Shown here: positions 1-9,042 of the stretch, one piece after another
How positions within the stretch are numbered: position 1 is the first letter of the stretch
How the letters are laid out: each line of letters opens with the position of its first letter
NCBI RefSeq assembly: GCF_000156375.1
Contig: NZ_DS996359.1
Span: forward strand, 713,797-777,796
Origin: Desulfovibrio piger ATCC 29098
GTDB lineage: Bacteria; Desulfobacterota; Desulfovibrionia; Desulfovibrionales; Desulfovibrionaceae
Direction of reading: 5' to 3'
Length of the DNA stretch: 64,000 bases
Notes under the pieces: generated by a model
Told to the model about the DNA's origin: nothing
Databases searched by the model: none
The model's input: only the letters and a program-made list of their open reading frames with translations
Position numbers and translations under genes: made by a program

Positions 1-1
1 G

Positions 2-31
2 AAACCCCTCCTCGCGTCAGCAGAGGGGTTC
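2..31 (-). terminator. Terminator of the hyf/ehr-like operon
   Basis: An 8-bp stem (AACCCCTC pairing with GAGGGGTT, loop about 12 nt) lies just past the stop codon of the leftward operon. On the minus strand the hairpin is followed by a short T run (TTTC) at the window edge, so only part of any U-tract is visible. Confidence 0.55.
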
Positions 32-52
32 CCCCTCCCCTCAATATCATTC

Positions 53-850
53 TTACAGCACGTCTTTTTCCGACTTCAGGCGCAGCAGGCCGTCGAGGAT
101 GCTCCAGGGGCTGGGCGGGCAGCCGGGCACGAAGAGCTGCACGTCGCACAGGGGCGGCAGACCGCCGCAGCATTCGTCGCTGTCGGCGAAAAGGCCGCCG
201 GAGATGGCACAGGAGCCCACGGCGATGGCGATGCGCGGCTCGGGCACGGCTGCCCAGGTGGCCAGCACGGCTTCGCGCATGTTGCGGCTCACGGGGCCGG
301 TGACCAGGATGCCGTCGGCATGGCGGGGCGAGGCCACGAAGTTGATGCCGAACTTGCCCAGGTCATAGACCAGGGTCCCCAGCACGTTGGTATCGGCCTC
401 ACAGGCGTTGCAGCCGGCGGCGCTGATCTCGCGCAGCTTGAGCGAGCGGGAGAACAGGCCGTTGCAGGCCTTGGGCTTGTGCAGGGGCCGGGGCCGGGCC
501 GTGACGATGAGGTCCTCACGGGCAAAGGCGGCCACGCGGTAGTCCCTGGTGAAACGGATCAGGCCCTCACCGCGTGCCGCGGTACAGGCACGGGCGCAGG
601 CTCCGCAGAACAGGCAGCGTCCCATGTCCAGGGCGATGCCGTCGGTCTCGCCGGCGGGGCCGGGCTCGGCGGGCGAGAGCTTGCGCAGGGCCCCGGTGGG
701 GCAGACGTCGAGGCAGGCGCGGCAGGAGCCGCAGTCCCCGGCCGCGATCTCGGGGCGTCCCATGTAGCGGGGCGAAAGGCCCGGCGCCTTGTGGGGGAAA
801 TCCAGCGTCCTGTATTTCTGGTGCAGGCGTTCCTTGAAGATGTCCAGCAT
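53..850 (-). CDS. Ferredoxin-NuoB fusion, small subunit of a hydrogenase-related complex (HyfH/HyfI-like)
   Basis: 265 aa, last gene of the operon. The N-terminal half is a 2x[4Fe-4S] ferredoxin (Cys40/43/46/50 and Cys79/82/85/89). The C-terminal half is a NuoB/HycG-like small subunit with the proximal-cluster cysteines visible as C147-x2-C150, C214 (GSC) and C244 (PGCPP). It would carry electrons from the ferredoxin clusters to a cluster next to the large subunit at the cytoplasmic face of the membrane arm. In E. coli Hyf the two domains are separate proteins (HyfH and HyfI); here they are fused. The ATG at 850 is chosen because an AGGAGG precedes it and it lies 14 nt after the large-subunit stop; a longer reading to 973 would run into that gene. 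Confidence 0.9.
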   Translation of the reverse strand: MLDIFKERLHQKYRTLDFPHKAPGLSPRYMGRPEIAAGDCGSCRACLDVCPTGALRKLSPAEPGPAGETDGIALDMGRCLFCGACARACTAARGEGLIRFTRDYRVAAFAREDLIVTARPRPLHKPKACNGLFSRSLKLREISAAGCNACEADTNVLGTLVYDLGKFGINFVASPRHADGILVTGPVSRNMREAVLATWAAVPEPRIAIAVGSCAISGGLFADSDECCGGLPPLCDVQLFVPGCPPSPWSILDGLLRLKSEKDVL

Positions 851-864
851 GTCAGTCCTCCTGC

Positions 865-2427
865 CTACAGGTCGTGGCCGCAATAGGAAAGGTTGAAGCT
901 CTTGTTGCAGAGCGGGAAGTCGGAGATCTGTTCGCCGCGCAGGGCCATTTCCAGACCGCTCCAGTTGTGCCACGAAGGATCATAGATCTTGTAGACGCCG
1001 AAGCGGCCTTCCGCATCCGTGACGGCCACATGACACAGCTCGCCGCGCCAGCCTTCCACCTGGGCCACGGCCAGCATGCCGCCGGGCAGGGCCTCGGGCA
1101 TGGGCGCACGCCAGAGGGCGGCATCGCTCTCGCCTTCGCGGAGCTTCTCCTCTTCGCCCAGACGGGCCAGATGCTGGAGGTCGGCTTCCACCAGGCGCAC
1201 GGAGTCGGCCACTTCCAGGCGGCGCACCGTGGCGCGGCCCAGCACGTCGCCGCCCTGGGCGGTGCGGATGTCGGTATCTTCCAGCGGCAGGCGGGAAAGG
1301 GGCGCATGGCGCCGGGCATCACGCGGCAGGCCGCAGGCACGCGCGGCCACGCCCACCATGCCGAAGTCCTCGGCGGTACGCAGGCTGACGCAGCCCGTGC
1401 CGGTCAGACGGTCCAGCACGCTGGGCGAGGCGAACATCACGTCCACGGCGCCCTTGACGTCACGCCAGCCCGCACGCAGGCGGTCCAGCAGGCCGCGGCA
1501 GGCAGCGGGATCCAGATCCCAGTTGACGCCGCCGGGGCAGACCAGGCCGCGCCCGAAGCGGTTGCCGCAGATCTCGGCGGTCATGTTGAGGAAGTCGCCG
1601 CGGATGCGGCCGTTCCAGGACGAGGTGGGCAAAAAGCCCGTATCGCCCGCGATGGCGCCCAGGTCGCCGGTATGGTTGGCCAGGCGTTCGAACTCCAGGC
1701 CCATGCGCCGCAGCAGCTGGGCACGCAGCGGCACGCTGACGCCCGCCAGACGTTCCAGCACCACGCTGTAGGCCGTGCAGTGGCCCACGCTGGTATCCCC
1801 CGCCACGCATTCCATGAGCGCGGCATCACGCAGGTGGGGGCCGCCGGCCAGCATCTTTTCCACGCCGCGGTGCTGGAAGCCCAGGCTGATCTCCAGATTG
1901 AGCACGTTCTCGCCGTAGCACTGGAAGCGGAAGTGGCCGGGCTCGATGATGCCCGCATGCACGGGGCCCACGGCCACTTCATGGACCTGGCCGCCTTCCA
2001 CGCGGTAGTGGTCGCACTGGGCCGGGCCGGGACGTTCCGCGCCCGAGGCGGGCGTGGTGTAGCGCACGGGCTTGAGCCAGGGGTGCCCCTCGGGGACGAT
2101 GCCCCAGGCCTCGTAGACCTCACGCTCGAAGCGCTGGAGCTGCGGGCATTCCTGGCTCATGGACGCATAGCGTTCCAGCGGCAGGCAGCGGGAGGCCCAC
2201 AGTTCCTGCTGCTGGTCATGGGCCATGACGCAGCACAGGCCGGCTGCGGCCGTATTGCCCGCCACCAGCGCCAGTTCGCCCTGGGCGTACAGGGCCCGGG
2301 GCAGGCCGAAGAAGGCCAGCACGCGCCAGCCGTGTGCCACCTGCGTCAGGATGGCGGCCCGCAGGGAGGCCGCGTCAAGACAGGGGATGTCGGCCAGTCT
2401 GGCCGGGGAAGCATAGGAAAAACGCAT
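865..2427 (-). CDS. NuoC-NuoD/HycE-like large subunit lacking NiFe cysteine pairs (Ehr-type)
   Basis: 520 aa. An N-terminal NuoC-like domain (about 1-130) is followed by a NuoD/HyfG-like large-subunit domain with the family landmarks GPVHAGIIEPGHFRF (154-168) and FQHRGVEKM (184-192). True group 4 hydrogenases bind NiFe through two CxxC pairs. At the first site this protein reads ECVAGDTSVGHC (single Cys207 and Cys217), and at the C-terminus PLCNKSFNLSYC (Cys507 and Cys516), so neither pair is present. That matches the energy-converting hydrogenase-related (Ehr) complexes rather than an active hydrogenase; the real substrate is unknown. Starts 3 nt after the hyfF-like stop with a GGAGG site. 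Confidence 0.88.
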   Translation of the reverse strand: MRFSYASPARLADIPCLDAASLRAAILTQVAHGWRVLAFFGLPRALYAQGELALVAGNTAAAGLCCVMAHDQQQELWASRCLPLERYASMSQECPQLQRFEREVYEAWGIVPEGHPWLKPVRYTTPASGAERPGPAQCDHYRVEGGQVHEVAVGPVHAGIIEPGHFRFQCYGENVLNLEISLGFQHRGVEKMLAGGPHLRDAALMECVAGDTSVGHCTAYSVVLERLAGVSVPLRAQLLRRMGLEFERLANHTGDLGAIAGDTGFLPTSSWNGRIRGDFLNMTAEICGNRFGRGLVCPGGVNWDLDPAACRGLLDRLRAGWRDVKGAVDVMFASPSVLDRLTGTGCVSLRTAEDFGMVGVAARACGLPRDARRHAPLSRLPLEDTDIRTAQGGDVLGRATVRRLEVADSVRLVEADLQHLARLGEEEKLREGESDAALWRAPMPEALPGGMLAVAQVEGWRGELCHVAVTDAEGRFGVYKIYDPSWHNWSGLEMALRGEQISDFPLCNKSFNLSYCGHDL

Positions 2428-2430
2428 GGT

Positions 2431-3966
2431 CTAGCCTCCAATGAGGGCCGCGCTGGCGCGCAGCAGCTTTTCGACGCCGTCGGGCATCCAGAAACCCAGC
2501 AGCAGCACGCACAGGCCCAGGGCCATGGGCGGCAGCACGCTCAGGGCGGACTCACGCGGGCATTCGGGCATGTCGGTGGGGCGGGTGCCCTGGAACATGC
2601 GCAGCACGGCCACGGACATGCCCACGAAGATGATGGCCAGGGCCAGCATGTACAGGGCGGCCACCAGCCACTGGCCCTGCTGCAGGATGCCCTTGAGGAT
2701 CAGGAACTCGCTGACGAACAGGCCGAACGGCGGCGAGCCCACGATGGCCAGGAAACCGCCCATCCACAGGGCGCCGGTGACGGGCATGGTCCAGCGCAGG
2801 CCGTGCACGTCGTAGCTGGAATAGGTGTGGTAGCGGGCCAGGATGTTGCCGGCCAGCAGGAAGAGCATGCACTTGGTCAGCGAATGGCACATGGCGTGCA
2901 GCATGCCGCCGAAGGCCGCAGCGCCGCCCAGGCCCACGGCCAGGGCCAGGATGCCCATGTGCTCCACGCTGGAGTAGGCCAGCATGCGCTTGTAGTGGCC
3001 CTGTCCCACGATGAAGATGGCGGCCACGAACATGGAGACCAGGCCGAAGAAGACCAGCAGCGTGCCGCTGAAGCCGCCCAGGCCCGCGCCCAGCATGATC
3101 TGGTGCCCGCGCAGGATGCCCAGGAAGGCACAGTTGAGCAGGGCGCCGGACAGCAGGGCCGAGACCAGCGAGGGGGCCTGGCTGTGGGCGTCGGGCAGCC
3201 AGTTGTGCAGGGGTGCCAGGCCCATCTTGGTGCCGTAGCCCACCAGCAGGAAGATGAAGGCCGCCTTGAGCCAGGGCAGATAGGTGGCCGCGCTCTGGGG
3301 CGCATCCAGCACGGCCAGGGCTTCGGCGCGCTGCTGGGCCAGATGGCGGAAGGCCTCCACCTGGTCCATGCTCTCCACCGGCGGCACGCCGGGCTCGTAG
3401 AAAGCCACGGAAAGCAGGATGTTGCCCAGCAGGGCCAGGGCGATACCCACGGAACAGATGATGAGGTACTTCCAGGTGGCTTCCAGCGACTGCTTGTGGC
3501 GGTGGAAGTAGATCAGGGGCGCGCTGGACAGGGTGGTGATCTCGATGCCCACCCACAGGGCGCCCAGATGGCGCGTGGTGGTGACCAGCGTCATGGCCGA
3601 GAGGAAGAAGCACAGGCAGGCCGTGAAGCGGCGTTCCGGGGCATTAGTGAAGGCCCGGCCGTCCAGGATGCTGGTGCGTTCGGTGATCAGGGCCTCGTCG
3701 CGCAGGTAGCCCACGCCGTAGACCGAGGCCACCAGAAAGAGCACGCTGGCCAGCACGAGGAAGAGCGTGCCCAGCGCGTCAGGCGCCAGCAGACCGGCCA
3801 GGGCCTGCGGATGCAGGCCGCCGCTCACATCGGCGGCCAGTTTGACGGAAAGGGCCGTGTGCAGCACGGCCGTGAGCAAGAGCAGGCCGCGGCAGACGGT
3901 GGTATTGCCCAGCAGCAGCATGAGCAGTCCGGCGCACAGGGGCGCAAACAGCAGACATTCCAGCAT
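2431..3966 (-). CDS. Proton-pumping membrane subunit, HyfF/NuoN-like
   Basis: 511 aa, hydrophobic throughout, with a Proton_antipo_M-type core (LLVGYGTKMGLAPLHNWLPD, then SALLSGALLNCAFLGILR). The conserved Lys and His of antiporter-like subunits sit in the segment GTKMGLAPLHNWLPDAHSQA. It is one of two such subunits in the operon and should translocate ions across the inner membrane when the peripheral arm is active. Ten nucleotides separate it from the upstream hyfE-like gene and three from the large subunit. Confidence 0.9.
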   Translation of the reverse strand: MLECLLFAPLCAGLLMLLLGNTTVCRGLLLLTAVLHTALSVKLAADVSGGLHPQALAGLLAPDALGTLFLVLASVLFLVASVYGVGYLRDEALITERTSILDGRAFTNAPERRFTACLCFFLSAMTLVTTTRHLGALWVGIEITTLSSAPLIYFHRHKQSLEATWKYLIICSVGIALALLGNILLSVAFYEPGVPPVESMDQVEAFRHLAQQRAEALAVLDAPQSAATYLPWLKAAFIFLLVGYGTKMGLAPLHNWLPDAHSQAPSLVSALLSGALLNCAFLGILRGHQIMLGAGLGGFSGTLLVFFGLVSMFVAAIFIVGQGHYKRMLAYSSVEHMGILALAVGLGGAAAFGGMLHAMCHSLTKCMLFLLAGNILARYHTYSSYDVHGLRWTMPVTGALWMGGFLAIVGSPPFGLFVSEFLILKGILQQGQWLVAALYMLALAIIFVGMSVAVLRMFQGTRPTDMPECPRESALSVLPPMALGLCVLLLGFWMPDGVEKLLRASAALIGG

Positions 3967-3975
3967 GGTCGCCCC

Positions 3976-4596
3976 CTAGTCGCGCAGGTCGTGGAAGCCC
4001 ACGTCGATGGATTCGAACGTGTGGCTGATGTGGTTGATGGCGATGCCCATGACGAAGACCGCCACGAAGATATCCAGCAGCAGGGTCAGCTCGAACCAGA
4101 CGGCACCGGCCGTCATGAGCGGGATGCCCAGCAGGAAGATGCCGTTTTCGGCCACCAGATAGCCCATGACCTGCGAGAGCGCCGTGGCGCGGCCCACCAC
4201 CAGCAGGAGGCCGCAGAACAGCGTGGTCAGGCCGGCGGGCAGGAGCAGGGGCGGGAAGAGGCCGGGCGTCATGGGCAGGCGGCCTTCCAGCCAGAGCGAG
4301 AAGACCAGGCAGGCCAGGCCGGTGAGCACGGCCAGGCCAAAGCCCAGACGGGGCTTGATGTGCGGGTCGGCACCGATCTGGCGGCGGGTGCGGTGCAGCA
4401 GCCAGGGCAGCAGGCCGCCCTTGATGAGCAGCACGGCCACGGCCAGCAGGGCATGGTCATGCATGAGCAGCAGGCCGCCCAGCAGGATGCCCTGCGCGGT
4501 CACCAGATTGATGAGCGTGCGCAGGCGGCCCATGCCCAGCAGGGCCAGGTTGTTGAGCGTCAGCAGGAAGAGGAAGAACTGGAAAAGAGCGCTCAT
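3976..4596 (-). CDS. Hydrogenase-4 component E-like membrane subunit (HyfE)
   Basis: 206 aa of nearly continuous transmembrane helices, with the HyfE-like pattern: an N-terminal helix pair, LINLVTAQGILLGGLLLMH, and a C-terminal region reading AENGIFLLGIPLM. HyfE resembles NuoK with extra helices and joins the antiporter-like subunits to the rest of the membrane arm. Starts at ATG 4596 preceded by GAGGT; it begins 3 nt after the NuoH-like stop, suggesting translational coupling. Confidence 0.87.
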   Translation of the reverse strand: MSALFQFFLFLLTLNNLALLGMGRLRTLINLVTAQGILLGGLLLMHDHALLAVAVLLIKGGLLPWLLHRTRRQIGADPHIKPRLGFGLAVLTGLACLVFSLWLEGRLPMTPGLFPPLLLPAGLTTLFCGLLLVVGRATALSQVMGYLVAENGIFLLGIPLMTAGAVWFELTLLLDIFVAVFVMGIAINHISHTFESIDVGFHDLRD

Positions 4597-4599
4597 GAT

Positions 4600-5532
4600 T
4601 TACCTCACCTGGGTCAGGATCAGGGCCAGGGCCGAAAGCACGGCCGCGCCGCCCAGCAGCACGGGCACCTTCTGCATGCGCAGACGGGCCATGACGGATT
4701 CCACGATGCCCACCAGCACGGCCACGGCAAAGATGCAGGCCAGCCAGCACAGGCTCTGCTGCCACAGGGGCAGGTCGGGCACCAGGATGCCCGCGGGCAG
4801 GGCCGCGAAGAACCACAGCTTGAGGGCCGCGCCGTACTCGATGAAGGAGAGGCTGGGGCCGGAGTGGTCCAGGATCATGACCTCGTGGATCATGGTCAGC
4901 TCCAGATGGGTGGTGGGGTCATCCACGGGGATGCGGCTGTTCTCCACCAGCAGCAGTACGAAGAAGACCACCGGCACCAGCAGCAGTTCGGCGCGTCCCA
5001 GCAGCCATTCGTGGGCCGGGCGGCCGCCCAGCATGCCGGAAAGGGAAAGCGCATCGTGCATGCCCAGGGTGGAACCCACGCCCACCAGGGTCAGCAGGCA
5101 GAGGAAGAGCACCGGCTCGGACAGGGCCGAGAAGGCGGCCTCGCGGCTGGCGCCCATGCCTTCAAAGGACGAACCGGTATCCAGGGCGGCCAGCATGGTC
5201 AAAAAGCGGCCCAGGCCCAGCAGGTAGGCGGCCAGCAAAAAGTCGCCGGAAAAACGCAGCGGCGAGGCCATGCCCCCCAGGGGCAGCAGGGCCAGGGCGC
5301 AGAGCACCGTGGCCAGGCCCACCACCGGGCCCAGCGTGAAGACGGGCGTGGTCACCTGGCTGATGACCTCGCCCTTGCGCAGGCCCTTGAAGATGTCGAA
5401 GTACAATTGCAGCACAGGCTTGCCGTGCCTGCCTGCCACCTTGGCCTTGATACGGGCTATGATGCCCGGCAGCAGCGGCGCCAGCAGCAGGGCCAGCGCA
5501 TACTGGAAACAGTAGAAGGCGAGATCGCTCAT
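4600..5532 (-). CDS. NuoH/HyfC-like membrane anchor subunit
   Basis: 310 aa. The cytoplasmic loop GKPVLQLYFDIFKGLRKGEV and the acidic pair in LLLVENSRIPVDDPTTHLEL are the hallmarks of NuoH/HyfC/EchB, the subunit that connects the peripheral arm to the proton channels. The start is the ATG at 5532, which overlaps the stop of the upstream NuoL-like gene as ATGA; the frame is open further upstream to 5622 but that stretch lies inside the neighbour and does not look like protein of this family. Confidence 0.9.
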   Translation of the reverse strand: MSDLAFYCFQYALALLLAPLLPGIIARIKAKVAGRHGKPVLQLYFDIFKGLRKGEVISQVTTPVFTLGPVVGLATVLCALALLPLGGMASPLRFSGDFLLAAYLLGLGRFLTMLAALDTGSSFEGMGASREAAFSALSEPVLFLCLLTLVGVGSTLGMHDALSLSGMLGGRPAHEWLLGRAELLLVPVVFFVLLLVENSRIPVDDPTTHLELTMIHEVMILDHSGPSLSFIEYGAALKLWFFAALPAGILVPDLPLWQQSLCWLACIFAVAVLVGIVESVMARLRMQKVPVLLGGAAVLSALALILTQVR

Positions 5533-7541
5533 GCGTGCAGCCCCCAGGCCAGCAACGCCACCAGCGTGGCGAGGATGTAAAGGATATAGAGATGGATCTT
5601 GCCGTGTTGCAGGATCTTGCACATGTTGCAGAGCTTTTCCACGCCTTCGAACAGCGGCGTGAACAGGCCCGTACGCAGACGGTCAGGGGCGGAGATGGCC
5701 ACCGAAGCCTTGCCGGGGAAGTAGCGGCCGTCCAGCTCCTGATGCACCTTCAGGCCCATGGCGCCGCCGAAGATGCGGCCCAGCGGCTCGGAGAAGGAGG
5801 CGTCCGTGTACTGCACGCGCGGGGTCCCGTACTGGTAGCCGCAGCCCCAGGTCTCTTCACGGCGCAGGCGGCCGGCGATGCAGGCCTTACGCAGCAGCCA
5901 CAGGGCGGCCACCAGGGCCAGCAGCACCATGCCCACCAGCGAGACCGTGCCCAGCATGTCGGCCACGCGCAGCATGACCTGCTGTCCGGCCACCGGATCG
6001 GGCAGGGGCGCGTTGACCGTGCTGATGAGCCAGCGGAAGCAGTGGCCGGAAGCCAGGCCGCCGGCCACGCAGAGGAAGGCCGGGATGGCCAGGGGCCAGA
6101 GATCGCGGGGACGGGGGCGGTGGGCCTCTTCCACACAGCGGCTGCGCGGCGCGCCCAGGAAGGTGATGCCGTAGGCCTTGGCATAGGTGGCGGCGGCCAG
6201 ACCGGAGACCAGGCCCAGCACCACCAGCGCCATGAGCAGGCCCAGCTGCTGTTCCACGCCGGGCAGGCTGGAACCGTCCAGCAGGGAAAGGGCCAGCACG
6301 AACTCGCCGGCAAAACCGTTGAAGGGCGGGAAGCAGGCGATGGAGACCGCGCCGATGCCGAAGGCGGCGCCCACCAGGGGCATGCGCTGTTGCAGGCCGC
6401 CCAGCAGCTCCATGCGCACGGTGCCGGTGGCGTGCAGCACCTCACCGGCGGTGAGGAAGAGCAGGCCCTTGAAGGCCGAGTGGTTGAGCATGTGGAACAT
6501 GGCGCCGGCCAGGCCCAGGGTGCCGATCCAGCTGTTGCCGCTGTGGCTGCCGATGAGCCAGGCGCCCACGCCCATGAGCATGAGGCCCATGTTCTCCACG
6601 CTGGAGTAGGCCAGCAGGCGCTTGAGGTTGCTTTGGGCCAGGGCCTTGAGGATGCCCATCAGCGCCGTGCCCAGCCCCAGGAACAGGGTCAGCCAGCCCC
6701 ACCAGGCCGGGGCGGCGCTGAGGGGGGCCACGAATTCGCAGCTGCGGATGATGCCGTACAGACCGGCGTTGATCATGGCGCCGGAGAGCAGGGCCGAGAT
6801 GTGGCTGGGCGCGGCCGGGTGGGCCTCGGGCAGCCAGACGTGCATGGGCGCGATACCGGCCTTGGCGCCAAAGCCCAGCAGGGACAGCACGAACAGGACC
6901 GAGGCCAGCGGCACCACGGGGCCTTCCTTGAGGGCCAGGACGGCAAAGGCCGTGTCGCCCGCGTTCTGCCAGAGCAGGCCGAAGAAGGCCAGCAGCAGGA
7001 CGGCGCCCAGGTGGGCGGCCACCAGATAGACCCACGAGGCGTCACGCACGTTGCGGTCGCTGTCGTTGAAGTCGATGAGGAAGAAGGGCGACAGGGACAT
7101 GACTTCCCAGGCCAGCAGGAAGAGCACGGCGTCGCGGGCCATCATGACCACGGCCATGCCCAGCACCAGCAGCAGATAGAAGAGCCAGTGGGCGGCCAGG
7201 TTATGCTCGCTGGCGCGGGTGTGGCGCAGCGAGATGCCCCCGGCACAGGCACAGACGAAGCCCAGACCGAAGACCGGCAGCAGGAAGACGCGGGAAAGGG
7301 CGTCCAGCCCCAGACTCAGACTGCCCACGGGCAGGCCCCAGGCCTGGGTCCACAGCAGGCTGCCCGTCCAGCTGTCCGTGAACAGGCCCGCCATGCCCAG
7401 GGCGCAGCCGCAGGCGGCCCCCAGAGGACCGAACAAATCGGCCAGCCGGGTCGTGGCGGGCGTGGGGCGGGCAAAAGCCAGCAGCCCCAGACCGGCGGCA
7501 CTGACCGCCAGTACACACAGAGCCAGTAAAATCAAAAACAT
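5529..7541 (-). CDS. NuoL/HyfB-like proton-pumping membrane subunit
   Basis: 670 aa, first gene of the operon. It has about 14-16 predicted membrane helices and the antiporter core (FLLAWEVMSLSPFFLI, then GFGAKAGIAPMHVWLPEAHP, SHISALLSGAMINAGLYGII). It would form the distal ion-translocating module. ATG 7541 is preferred over the in-frame GTG at 7547 because GGAG sits 7 nt before the ATG but only 1 nt before the GTG. The following gene overlaps by 4 nt. Gene order is B-C-E-F-G-HI; no separate HyfA or HyfD and no hyp maturation genes are nearby. Confidence 0.9.
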   Translation of the reverse strand: MFLILLALCVLAVSAAGLGLLAFARPTPATTRLADLFGPLGAACGCALGMAGLFTDSWTGSLLWTQAWGLPVGSLSLGLDALSRVFLLPVFGLGFVCACAGGISLRHTRASEHNLAAHWLFYLLLVLGMAVVMMARDAVLFLLAWEVMSLSPFFLIDFNDSDRNVRDASWVYLVAAHLGAVLLLAFFGLLWQNAGDTAFAVLALKEGPVVPLASVLFVLSLLGFGAKAGIAPMHVWLPEAHPAAPSHISALLSGAMINAGLYGIIRSCEFVAPLSAAPAWWGWLTLFLGLGTALMGILKALAQSNLKRLLAYSSVENMGLMLMGVGAWLIGSHSGNSWIGTLGLAGAMFHMLNHSAFKGLLFLTAGEVLHATGTVRMELLGGLQQRMPLVGAAFGIGAVSIACFPPFNGFAGEFVLALSLLDGSSLPGVEQQLGLLMALVVLGLVSGLAAATYAKAYGITFLGAPRSRCVEEAHRPRPRDLWPLAIPAFLCVAGGLASGHCFRWLISTVNAPLPDPVAGQQVMLRVADMLGTVSLVGMVLLALVAALWLLRKACIAGRLRREETWGCGYQYGTPRVQYTDASFSEPLGRIFGGAMGLKVHQELDGRYFPGKASVAISAPDRLRTGLFTPLFEGVEKLCNMCKILQHGKIHLYILYILATLVALLAWGLHA

Positions 7542-7867
7542 GAGCACACTCCGACATTCAGACCGTCAAAGTACACGATGCGGCCCTGCCATGGGCAGGA
7601 CCGCATCTGTGGAAACTTTTCTGGCGGCATGGTCCGAGCGCTCCTTCCCCGGAGACTTGCAGCGCCCATGCCGGACGGACAGACGGACTCCCTGTCCGTC
7701 AAGGGTTGTGGTTGCGCGTCCGTACCGGCCGGTACGGATCCCCCCTGCGTCGCCTTCCCCGGGCGGCGCATCCATATATGAGTTCGACCGGAGCGGGGGC
7801 GGCGGCGCACTGCCCGCCCAAAGGCGGCTTTGCGCTCGTCGGCATCCCCTGCTCCGGACACGGACAT
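7542..7867. other. Gene-free region with three inverted repeats upstream of the hyf/ehr-like operon
   Basis: No convincing ORF. It holds a near-perfect hairpin at 7578-7606 (GATGCGG...CCGCATC arms), a 9-bp stem at 7674-7700 (GACGGACAG / CTGTCCGTC), and a perfect 20-bp palindrome at 7719-7738 (TCCGTACCGGCCGGTACGGA). None is followed by a clear U-tract, so these look more like operators or leader structures than terminators. The first hairpin would lie in the 5' leader of the leftward operon. Confidence 0.5.
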
Positions 7868-8824
7868 CTAGGCCAGACCTTTGCGGATCTGTTCGTCGAA
7901 ATAGGCGATGGTCTTTTTCAGACCTTCTTCCAGCTGGACCTTGGGCTCCCAGCCCAGGACCTCGCGGGCCAGACTGATGTCGGGACGGCGCTGTTTGGGG
8001 TCGTCGCCGGGCAGGGGCTCGCAGATCAGCTTGGAGCTGCTGTTGGTGAGCGCGATGACCTTTTCGGCCAGTTCGCGGATGGTGAACTCGCCGGGGTTGC
8101 CCATGTTCACGGGGCCGGTGAAGTCGTCGGGCGTGGCCATGAGGCGGCACATGCATTCCACCAGGTCATCCACATAGCAGAAGGAGCGGGTCTGACTGCC
8201 GTCGCCGTAGATGGTGATGGGCTCGCCCTTCAGGGCCTGCACGATGAAGTTGGAGACCACGCGGCCGTCGTTGGGATGCATCTTGGGGCCGTAGGTATTG
8301 AAGATGCGGCCCACCTTGATGTTCACGTTGTTCTGGCGGCGGTAGGAGAAGAACAGGGCCTCGGCGCAGCGCTTGCCTTCGTCATAGCAGGAGCGGATGC
8401 CGTTGGGGTTCACATGGCCCCAGTAGCTCTCGGGCTGCGGATGCACATCGGGGTCGCCGTAGACCTCGCTGGTGGAGGCCTGGAAGATGCGCGCCTTCAG
8501 GCGCTTGGCCAGGCCCAGCATGTTGATGGCGCCGTGGACGCAGGTCTTGATGGTCTGCACGGGGTCGTGCTGGTAGTGGACGGGCGAGGCCGGACAGGCC
8601 AGGTTGTAGATCTCGTCCACTTCCACGAACAGGGGGAAGGTCACGTCATGGCGCAGCAGCTCGAAGCGCTTGTTGTCCATGAGCTCTTCCACATTGGAGC
8701 GGGCACTGGAAAAGAAATTGTCCACGCACAGGACTTCGTGCCCCTCGTCCAGCAGACGCGCGCACAGATGCGAGCCCAGAAAACCCGAACCACCAGTGAC
8801 AAGAACCCGTTTTCGCAAATGCAT
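7868..8824 (-). CDS. UDP-glucuronate decarboxylase / NAD-dependent sugar epimerase family
   Basis: 318 aa, the full length expected for bacterial UDP-xylose synthase-type short-chain dehydrogenases. The NAD-binding glycine motif is TGGSGFLG (10-17) and the catalytic YxxxK is seen in SCYDEGKR. The segments [19 protein letters not shown] and [10 protein letters not shown] are typical of UDP-glucuronate decarboxylases (UXS), which make UDP-xylose for surface polysaccharides. A GAGAGG precedes the ATG at 8824. It stands alone between the hyf/ehr-like operon and a rightward tatD gene. Confidence 0.88.
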
Positions 8825-9042
8825 GATAGCCTCTCAACGTAAAATGACAATAGGCGCAGAGAGTGTACGCCCTTGTCCCGGGACTGGCAATGCCTGAAAC
8901 GGGGCTTTTTCGCGGCAGGGCAGGGGCTTGCGTCCCGCGGCCGCCCCTGCTAGAAGCCATGCCAGACGGGCGCCCGGCCGGGGATGGGCGGTGTCCGTCC
9001 CCGGGGCAGCGTTGCCCGCATCCTCTCCATCCCGGATCCGTC

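Follow-up and report, generated by a model that had tools for sequence, protein, structure and literature searches.

Energy-converting-hydrogenase-related (Ehr) complexes resemble respiratory complex I and Ech hydrogenase, lack the CxxC motifs, and have no known function (PMC10284858, PMC3569383, PMC6349859, PMC6728331). For the Geobacter representatives it has been suggested that they are non-functional and drifting (PMC13194489). In Escherichia coli HycE, proton-path and canopy residues have been described at E193, H284, R395, E437 and R478 (PMC9474812). The MBS enzyme works without quinone residues and NiFe by way of a three-cysteine proximal cluster, keeps two of the four NiFe cysteines, and is reported to have no equivalent of MbhL E21 (PMC7684303). 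Here we describe an operon of this kind in a 64,000-nucleotide stretch of DNA (the window) from Desulfovibrio piger or a very close species, its large subunit being 99% identical to the homologue of D. piger PG-251-APC-1. Sequence comparisons support the view that it encodes a further, complete Ehr complex rather than a new system. We judge it somewhat better than an even chance that this complex is a ferredoxin-linked ion pump, carrying out proton-coupled chemistry on an acceptor other than H2 at the former NiFe pocket.

The operon occupies positions 53-7541 of the window on the minus strand and comprises six overlapping or adjacent genes, given here in operon order:

5529 to 7541, minus strand: HyfB-like antiporter-type (NuoL-like) subunit, 670 residues, ATG at 7541 (PRK06521, 4.5e-159; E148, K229 and K360 conserved).
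4600 to 5532, minus strand: HyfC/HycD/NuoH-like anchor subunit, 310 residues (PF00146, 2.5e-28).
3976 to 4596, minus strand: HyfE-like (NuoK-like) membrane subunit, 206 residues (PRK11492, 5e-12).
2431 to 3966, minus strand: HyfF-like antiporter-type (NuoN/M-like) subunit, 511 residues (PRK06458, 8e-99; PF00361, 1.5e-47; E142, K247 and K365 conserved).
865 to 2427, minus strand: large subunit (EhrL-like), 520 residues, a fusion of 30 kDa and 49 kDa parts without NiFe ligands (PF00346, 1.7e-30; PF00329, 1e-4; closest structure E. coli HycE, 7z0s_E).
53 to 850, minus strand: small subunit (EhrS-like), 265 residues, with an N-terminal 2[4Fe-4S] ferredoxin-type domain (HycF/NuoI-like) and a NuoB/HycG-like proximal-cluster domain (PF01058, 7e-23; Fer4_7, 1.5e-08; 12 of 12 ligand cysteines).

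The membrane arm is thus of the HyfB/C/E/F type and the large subunit of the HycE type; together with the antiporter-like proteins in the membrane this is a subunit set of the complex I/Ech type. The initial annotation had read the large subunit as EC-x9-C and C-x8-C with both NiFe-binding CxxC motifs gone, and this pattern is correct, the residues being E206-C207-x9-C217 and C507-x8-C516. In an ungapped alignment with the Ech protein of the same genome (RVCSLC ... DPCVSC) the four NiFe-ligand positions correspond to A209, T212, S514 and G517; C207, C217, C507 and C516 are therefore not NiFe ligands. The two CxxC ligand pairs of a group 4 [NiFe] hydrogenase have been replaced as follows:

1792 to 1803, minus strand: first former NiFe site, A209-G210-D211-T212 in place of CxxC (ungapped alignment with Ech RVCSLC; G210 and D211 in 100 of 100 relatives).
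877 to 888, minus strand: second former NiFe site, S514-Y515-C516-G517 in place of CxxC, within the C-terminal motif FPLCNKSFNLSYCGHDL (alignment with Ech and with relatives).

Across 100 relatives drawn from many phyla, a cysteine pair never occurs at the ligand positions, which dismisses sequencing error or chance as the cause of the loss. Single cysteines occur at position 209 in four of these proteins and at positions 212, 514 and 517 in none, while the invariant G210-D211 and the motif FPLCNKSFNLSYCGHDL mark the former sites throughout. The window protein also stops at the point where mature hydrogenases are cleaved, and a maturation protease would therefore not be needed.

An active NiFe hydrogenase with unusual ligands is practically ruled out by the absence of cysteine from all four ligand positions and by the position of the C-terminus. 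The presence of HypD in the window genome (contig C44) would favour such an enzyme; however, an intact true Ech operon with an adjoining HypA-like gene lies ~93 kb from the Ehr operon, and this separate hydrogenase explains the hyp genes. Moreover, HypD was not found in 11 of the 26 Ehr-bearing genomes searched, including two rated 100% (G091) and 97% (G161) complete and those of two isolates, Rectinema subterraneum and Geothrix paludis. The initial annotation had argued from the lack of hyp genes nearby, which is true of the neighbourhood and weak as stated, given HypD on another contig; the wider survey strengthens the argument. The Ech hydrogenase shares ferredoxin-type clusters, proximal-cluster spacing and a NuoH-like anchor with the Ehr complex, whereas its large subunit is only 25% identical to the Ehr protein and keeps both CxxC pairs.

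The assignment to Ehr is carried by phylogeny. In a tree of 67 sequences the large subunit falls among Geobacteraceae Ehr and other relatives that lack the cysteines, and HycE/HyfG, Ech, MBH and NuoD lie outside this group (SH-like approximate likelihood-ratio test, SH-aLRT, 100). The tree was a quick one, is arbitrarily rooted and has some long branches; its Ehr reference consists of Geobacter/Geomonas loci (L061, L064) identified as Ehr from the order and composition of their genes, without the protein of G. sulfurreducens itself. The cysteine-less clade takes in the window protein, Geobacter/Geomonas and plasmid-borne relatives, and a single change in Ehr and another in complex I suffice to account for the NiFe trait on the tree. 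Membership of the Ehr class, as first proposed, is supported by this clustering, and the published description fits. The accompanying suggestion of a new electron-driven ion pump is not supported as new, since Ehr already received its name in the Geobacter work; pumping itself is deduced from conserved residues only.

Geobacter EhrL/EhrS and their relatives (PMC3569383, PMC7894505, PMC10284858) have the same subunit set, the same missing NiFe cysteines and a large subunit that clusters with that of the window. Geomonas and several other Ehr carry two NuoL-like HyfB subunits, whereas the window operon has one only. By hand count, a close homologue is present in ~67 of 199 genomes from the order to which the host belongs. 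Relatives sharing 44-58% identity come from Verrucomicrobiota, Planctomycetota, Lentisphaerota, Acidobacteriota, Elusimicrobiota, Spirochaetota and Omnitrophota, among others. NiFe-less group-4-like large subunits were also seen outside the main Ehr cluster, on a Burkholderia cenocepacia plasmid (L170:802-1884 and an upstream frame; site motifs AERVSGVDSFAQ ... EASFGLTIAGCAR) and at L151 in genome G008 (site motif ATFGLSVAENDR).

Searches of the PDB by sequence and by fold both rank E. coli HycE (7z0s_E) first for the large subunit, and sequence alignment maps the HycE residues E193, H284, R395, E437 and R478 to E162, H252, R363, E405 and R461. E162, equivalent to HycE E193 and MbhL E21, is found in 100 of 100 relatives and the other four in 99-100 of 100; all five are also present in another collection of sequences, from Verrucomicrobiota and Planctomycetota. 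Formate hydrogenlyase 1 and hydrogenase 4 of E. coli (HycE, HyfG) therefore share with the window complex the 30 and 49 kDa fusion and the proton-path residues, and give the best sequence and fold match; unlike them, the window complex has no NiFe ligands, an Asn for the canopy Asp, and no formate dehydrogenase or HycB-type partner in its operon. The small subunit retains its proximal-cluster cysteines, as initially annotated; these are C188-x2-C191, C255 and C285, in hydrogenase-type spacing, and eight ferredoxin-type cysteines are present as well. The retained proton path and ligated clusters suggest that the pocket is still supplied with electrons and protons, but without NiFe.

In the membrane arm, the Glu of transmembrane helix 5 and the Lys of helices 7 and 12 are conserved in both antiporter-like subunits in at least 93% of 90-98 relatives, bearing out the earlier description of these subunits as intact; the NuoH-like subunit shows the same degree of conservation at many of its charged positions. 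From these pump residues and the 2[4Fe-4S] domain we infer ferredoxin-dependent pumping. Low-potential electrons, most likely from reduced ferredoxin, would enter at the small subunit and cross three [4Fe-4S] clusters to the former NiFe pocket, where proton-coupled reduction of an acceptor other than H2 would take place. The energy released would drive ion export through the HyfC/E/F/B-like membrane arm; the reaction could also run in reverse, with an ion gradient driving ferredoxin reduction.

Several observations weigh against this mechanism. We infer the electron donor, the acceptor, the direction and the ion alike. The canopy Asp529, strictly conserved in hydrogenases and complex I, is Asn (N512) in the window protein. 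In addition, some or all of the proximal-cluster cysteines are missing from a small number of relatives (L113:9515-10357, L074:9489-10283, L106:9340-10266, L108:5179-5976 and L185), whose sequences are difficult to reconcile with electrons being delivered to the pocket. Their small subunits carry, for example, SEEW or NEEW for CCCC, so that CxxC/C/C becomes SxxE/E/W. In the few Opitutae and Planctomycetales relatives concerned, the ferredoxin cysteines, proton path, pocket and a four-cysteine set of the large subunit are kept; the plasmid-borne Ehr of Allomeiothermus silvanus and Mycobacterium branderi have likewise lost the proximal cysteines. These natural losses are exceptions that any Ehr mechanism must explain.

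In another reading the peripheral arm would no longer do catalysis at the pocket and would only control ion flux, making Ehr a redox-gated or purely structural ion transporter. The losses in Allomeiothermus and M. branderi, and those in Opitutae and Planctomycetales, where the subunits are otherwise intact, argue in this direction. Nevertheless, clusters and proton path are intact in the window protein and in the great majority of relatives, where selection would not be expected to keep them in a redox-dead arm, and we consider such a transporter quite unlikely. As a separate observation, A. silvanus plasmid pMESIL01 carries a near-duplicate pair of Ehr-like operons (L155:8983-11132 and L167) that lack the NiFe cysteines, the proximal-cluster cysteines and one of the two ferredoxin clusters, making them almost cluster-free relatives of complex I.

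A ferredoxin:menaquinone oxidoreductase, in effect a shortened complex I with menaquinone bound in the former NiFe pocket, would agree with the fold shared with NuoD, the NuoH-like anchor and two MqnA/MqnD-type matches in the window genome. Indeed, complex I (NuoD/Nqo4) has in common with Ehr the pump residues and the loss of all four NiFe cysteines. However, the quinone-headgroup His and Tyr of complex I (Nqo4 H38 and Y87) are I161 and G210 in the window protein, each in 100 of 100 relatives; the proximal cluster is not of the adjacent-cysteine complex I type; and the window Ehr differs further from complex I in having no NADH module and in forming a separate branch of the tree. In 16 of the 26 Ehr-bearing genomes there was neither MqnA/MqnD nor a true MenD, scored above its cut-off. 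Most of the 16 are of unknown completeness, several of them being metagenome-assembled genomes, and other quinone routes are not excluded, so the result indicates that menaquinone is not obligatory rather than that it is never used. We therefore regard menaquinone reduction as unlikely, and it is unlikely that either classical menaquinone or H+/H2 is the obligatory substrate. Two further markers were set aside: UbiA was too broad to report on quinones, and RnfC exceeded the cut-off in only 9 of the 26 genomes, with no consistent pattern.

Reduction of polysulfide or a disulfide at the proximal cluster, as in an MBS-like sulfane-sulfur reductase, is very unlikely. Many Ehr hosts are not sulfur reducers, although the host of the window is a sulfur-metabolising anaerobe. 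Like the window complex, Pyrococcus MBS/Mbx has lost the NiFe centre, lacks the quinone residues (PMC7684303) and has a Mrp/complex I-type membrane arm. But MBS chemistry needs an open three-cysteine cluster, and MBS retains two NiFe cysteines; the window small subunit, like that of nearly all relatives, has all four proximal ligands in hydrogenase spacing, and its large subunit keeps none of the NiFe cysteines and has the invariant E162. In the PDB comparison MBS also matches worse than HycE or MBH.

Four cysteines of the large subunit outside the classical ligand positions are near-invariant in the subfamily:

1918 to 1920, minus strand: C170 (99 of 100 relatives).
1567 to 1569, minus strand: C287 (99 of 100 relatives).
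907 to 909, minus strand: C507 (96 of 100 relatives).
880 to 882, minus strand: C516 (97 of 100 relatives).

They are carried nearly as a set, all four being present in 94 of 100 relatives, and the set is lost wholly or mostly in a second-copy protein (L128) and in distant plasmid relatives. It is doubtful, though conceivable, that they rebuild the former NiFe pocket as a thiol-based redox or metal site. An AlphaFold model of the large subunit has pLDDT 86.8 and pTM 0.90, with residues 511-520 below 50. The second copy belongs to a Verrucomicrobia genome with two different Ehr operons in tandem (L128:9444-17425), one with and one without the set. Two ideas about these cysteines were rejected. 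A link between the set and the ferredoxin domain, to which the first plasmid relatives had pointed, rests on one tree change and is contradicted by L236/L237, which have full ferredoxin cysteines without the set, and by many relatives that lack ferredoxin cluster I and keep it. A ligand swap of C507N with P163C failed because the two changes sit in different sequences.

The loss of the NiFe ligands could also mean that the operon is a degenerate hydrogenase drifting to loss, as proposed for Geobacter Ehr (PMC13194489). For the window operon this is scarcely credible and is refuted by a selection test: all six reading frames are open, and the ratio of nonsynonymous to synonymous substitution (dN/dS) is 0.00-0.25 in all six genes, compared with a relative whose large subunit is 96.7% identical. 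Because every gene is under purifying selection, the operon is not a relic and appears intact and actively maintained, in disagreement with the drifting view (PMC13194489) at least for this locus. The NiFe loss is, in addition, ancient and common to several phyla, with invariant new motifs. A broken copy does occur elsewhere: one genome has, near an intact copy, a second large-subunit fragment with stops (L049, G150:C19:378482-379213).

The operon stands alone. On its low side, past an N-masked stretch, are genes for an HD-domain-like protein, a D-Ala-D-Ala ligase-like protein, an EamA-type transporter and a phosphate permease-like protein, and on its high side a nucleotide-sugar decarboxylase/epimerase-like gene, all named from their translations only. 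No RNA families were found in positions 1-9000 of the window, and no sigma-70-like promoter upstream of 7541. There was no conserved partner gene beside the operon in Desulfovibrionales and none in 80 named loci of other groups, apart from a regulator-like gene; this fits a diffusible donor, for instance ferredoxin. The regulator-like gene, which combines an HTH_17 domain with a phosphotransferase system (PTS) EIIA type 2 domain, precedes Ehr operons in 36 non-Desulfovibrio loci (L086:2207-2926 and 35 others), unlike the window operon, which has no such gene in front. Its product may be a regulator connecting Ehr with the nitrogen or sugar PTS.

Ehr complexes are found in bacteria of many phyla and their substrate is not known. 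Their occurrence where no hydrogenase maturation and no menaquinone synthesis can be detected, with the proton path kept, speaks against the two default substrates, and the value of the analysis lies in this exclusion and in the concrete residues named. A host with a true Ech alongside Ehr makes the substrate question testable by comparison within one organism. If ion pumping proves true, gut sulfate reducers of the Desulfovibrio piger type would have a second ferredoxin-linked site of energy conservation.

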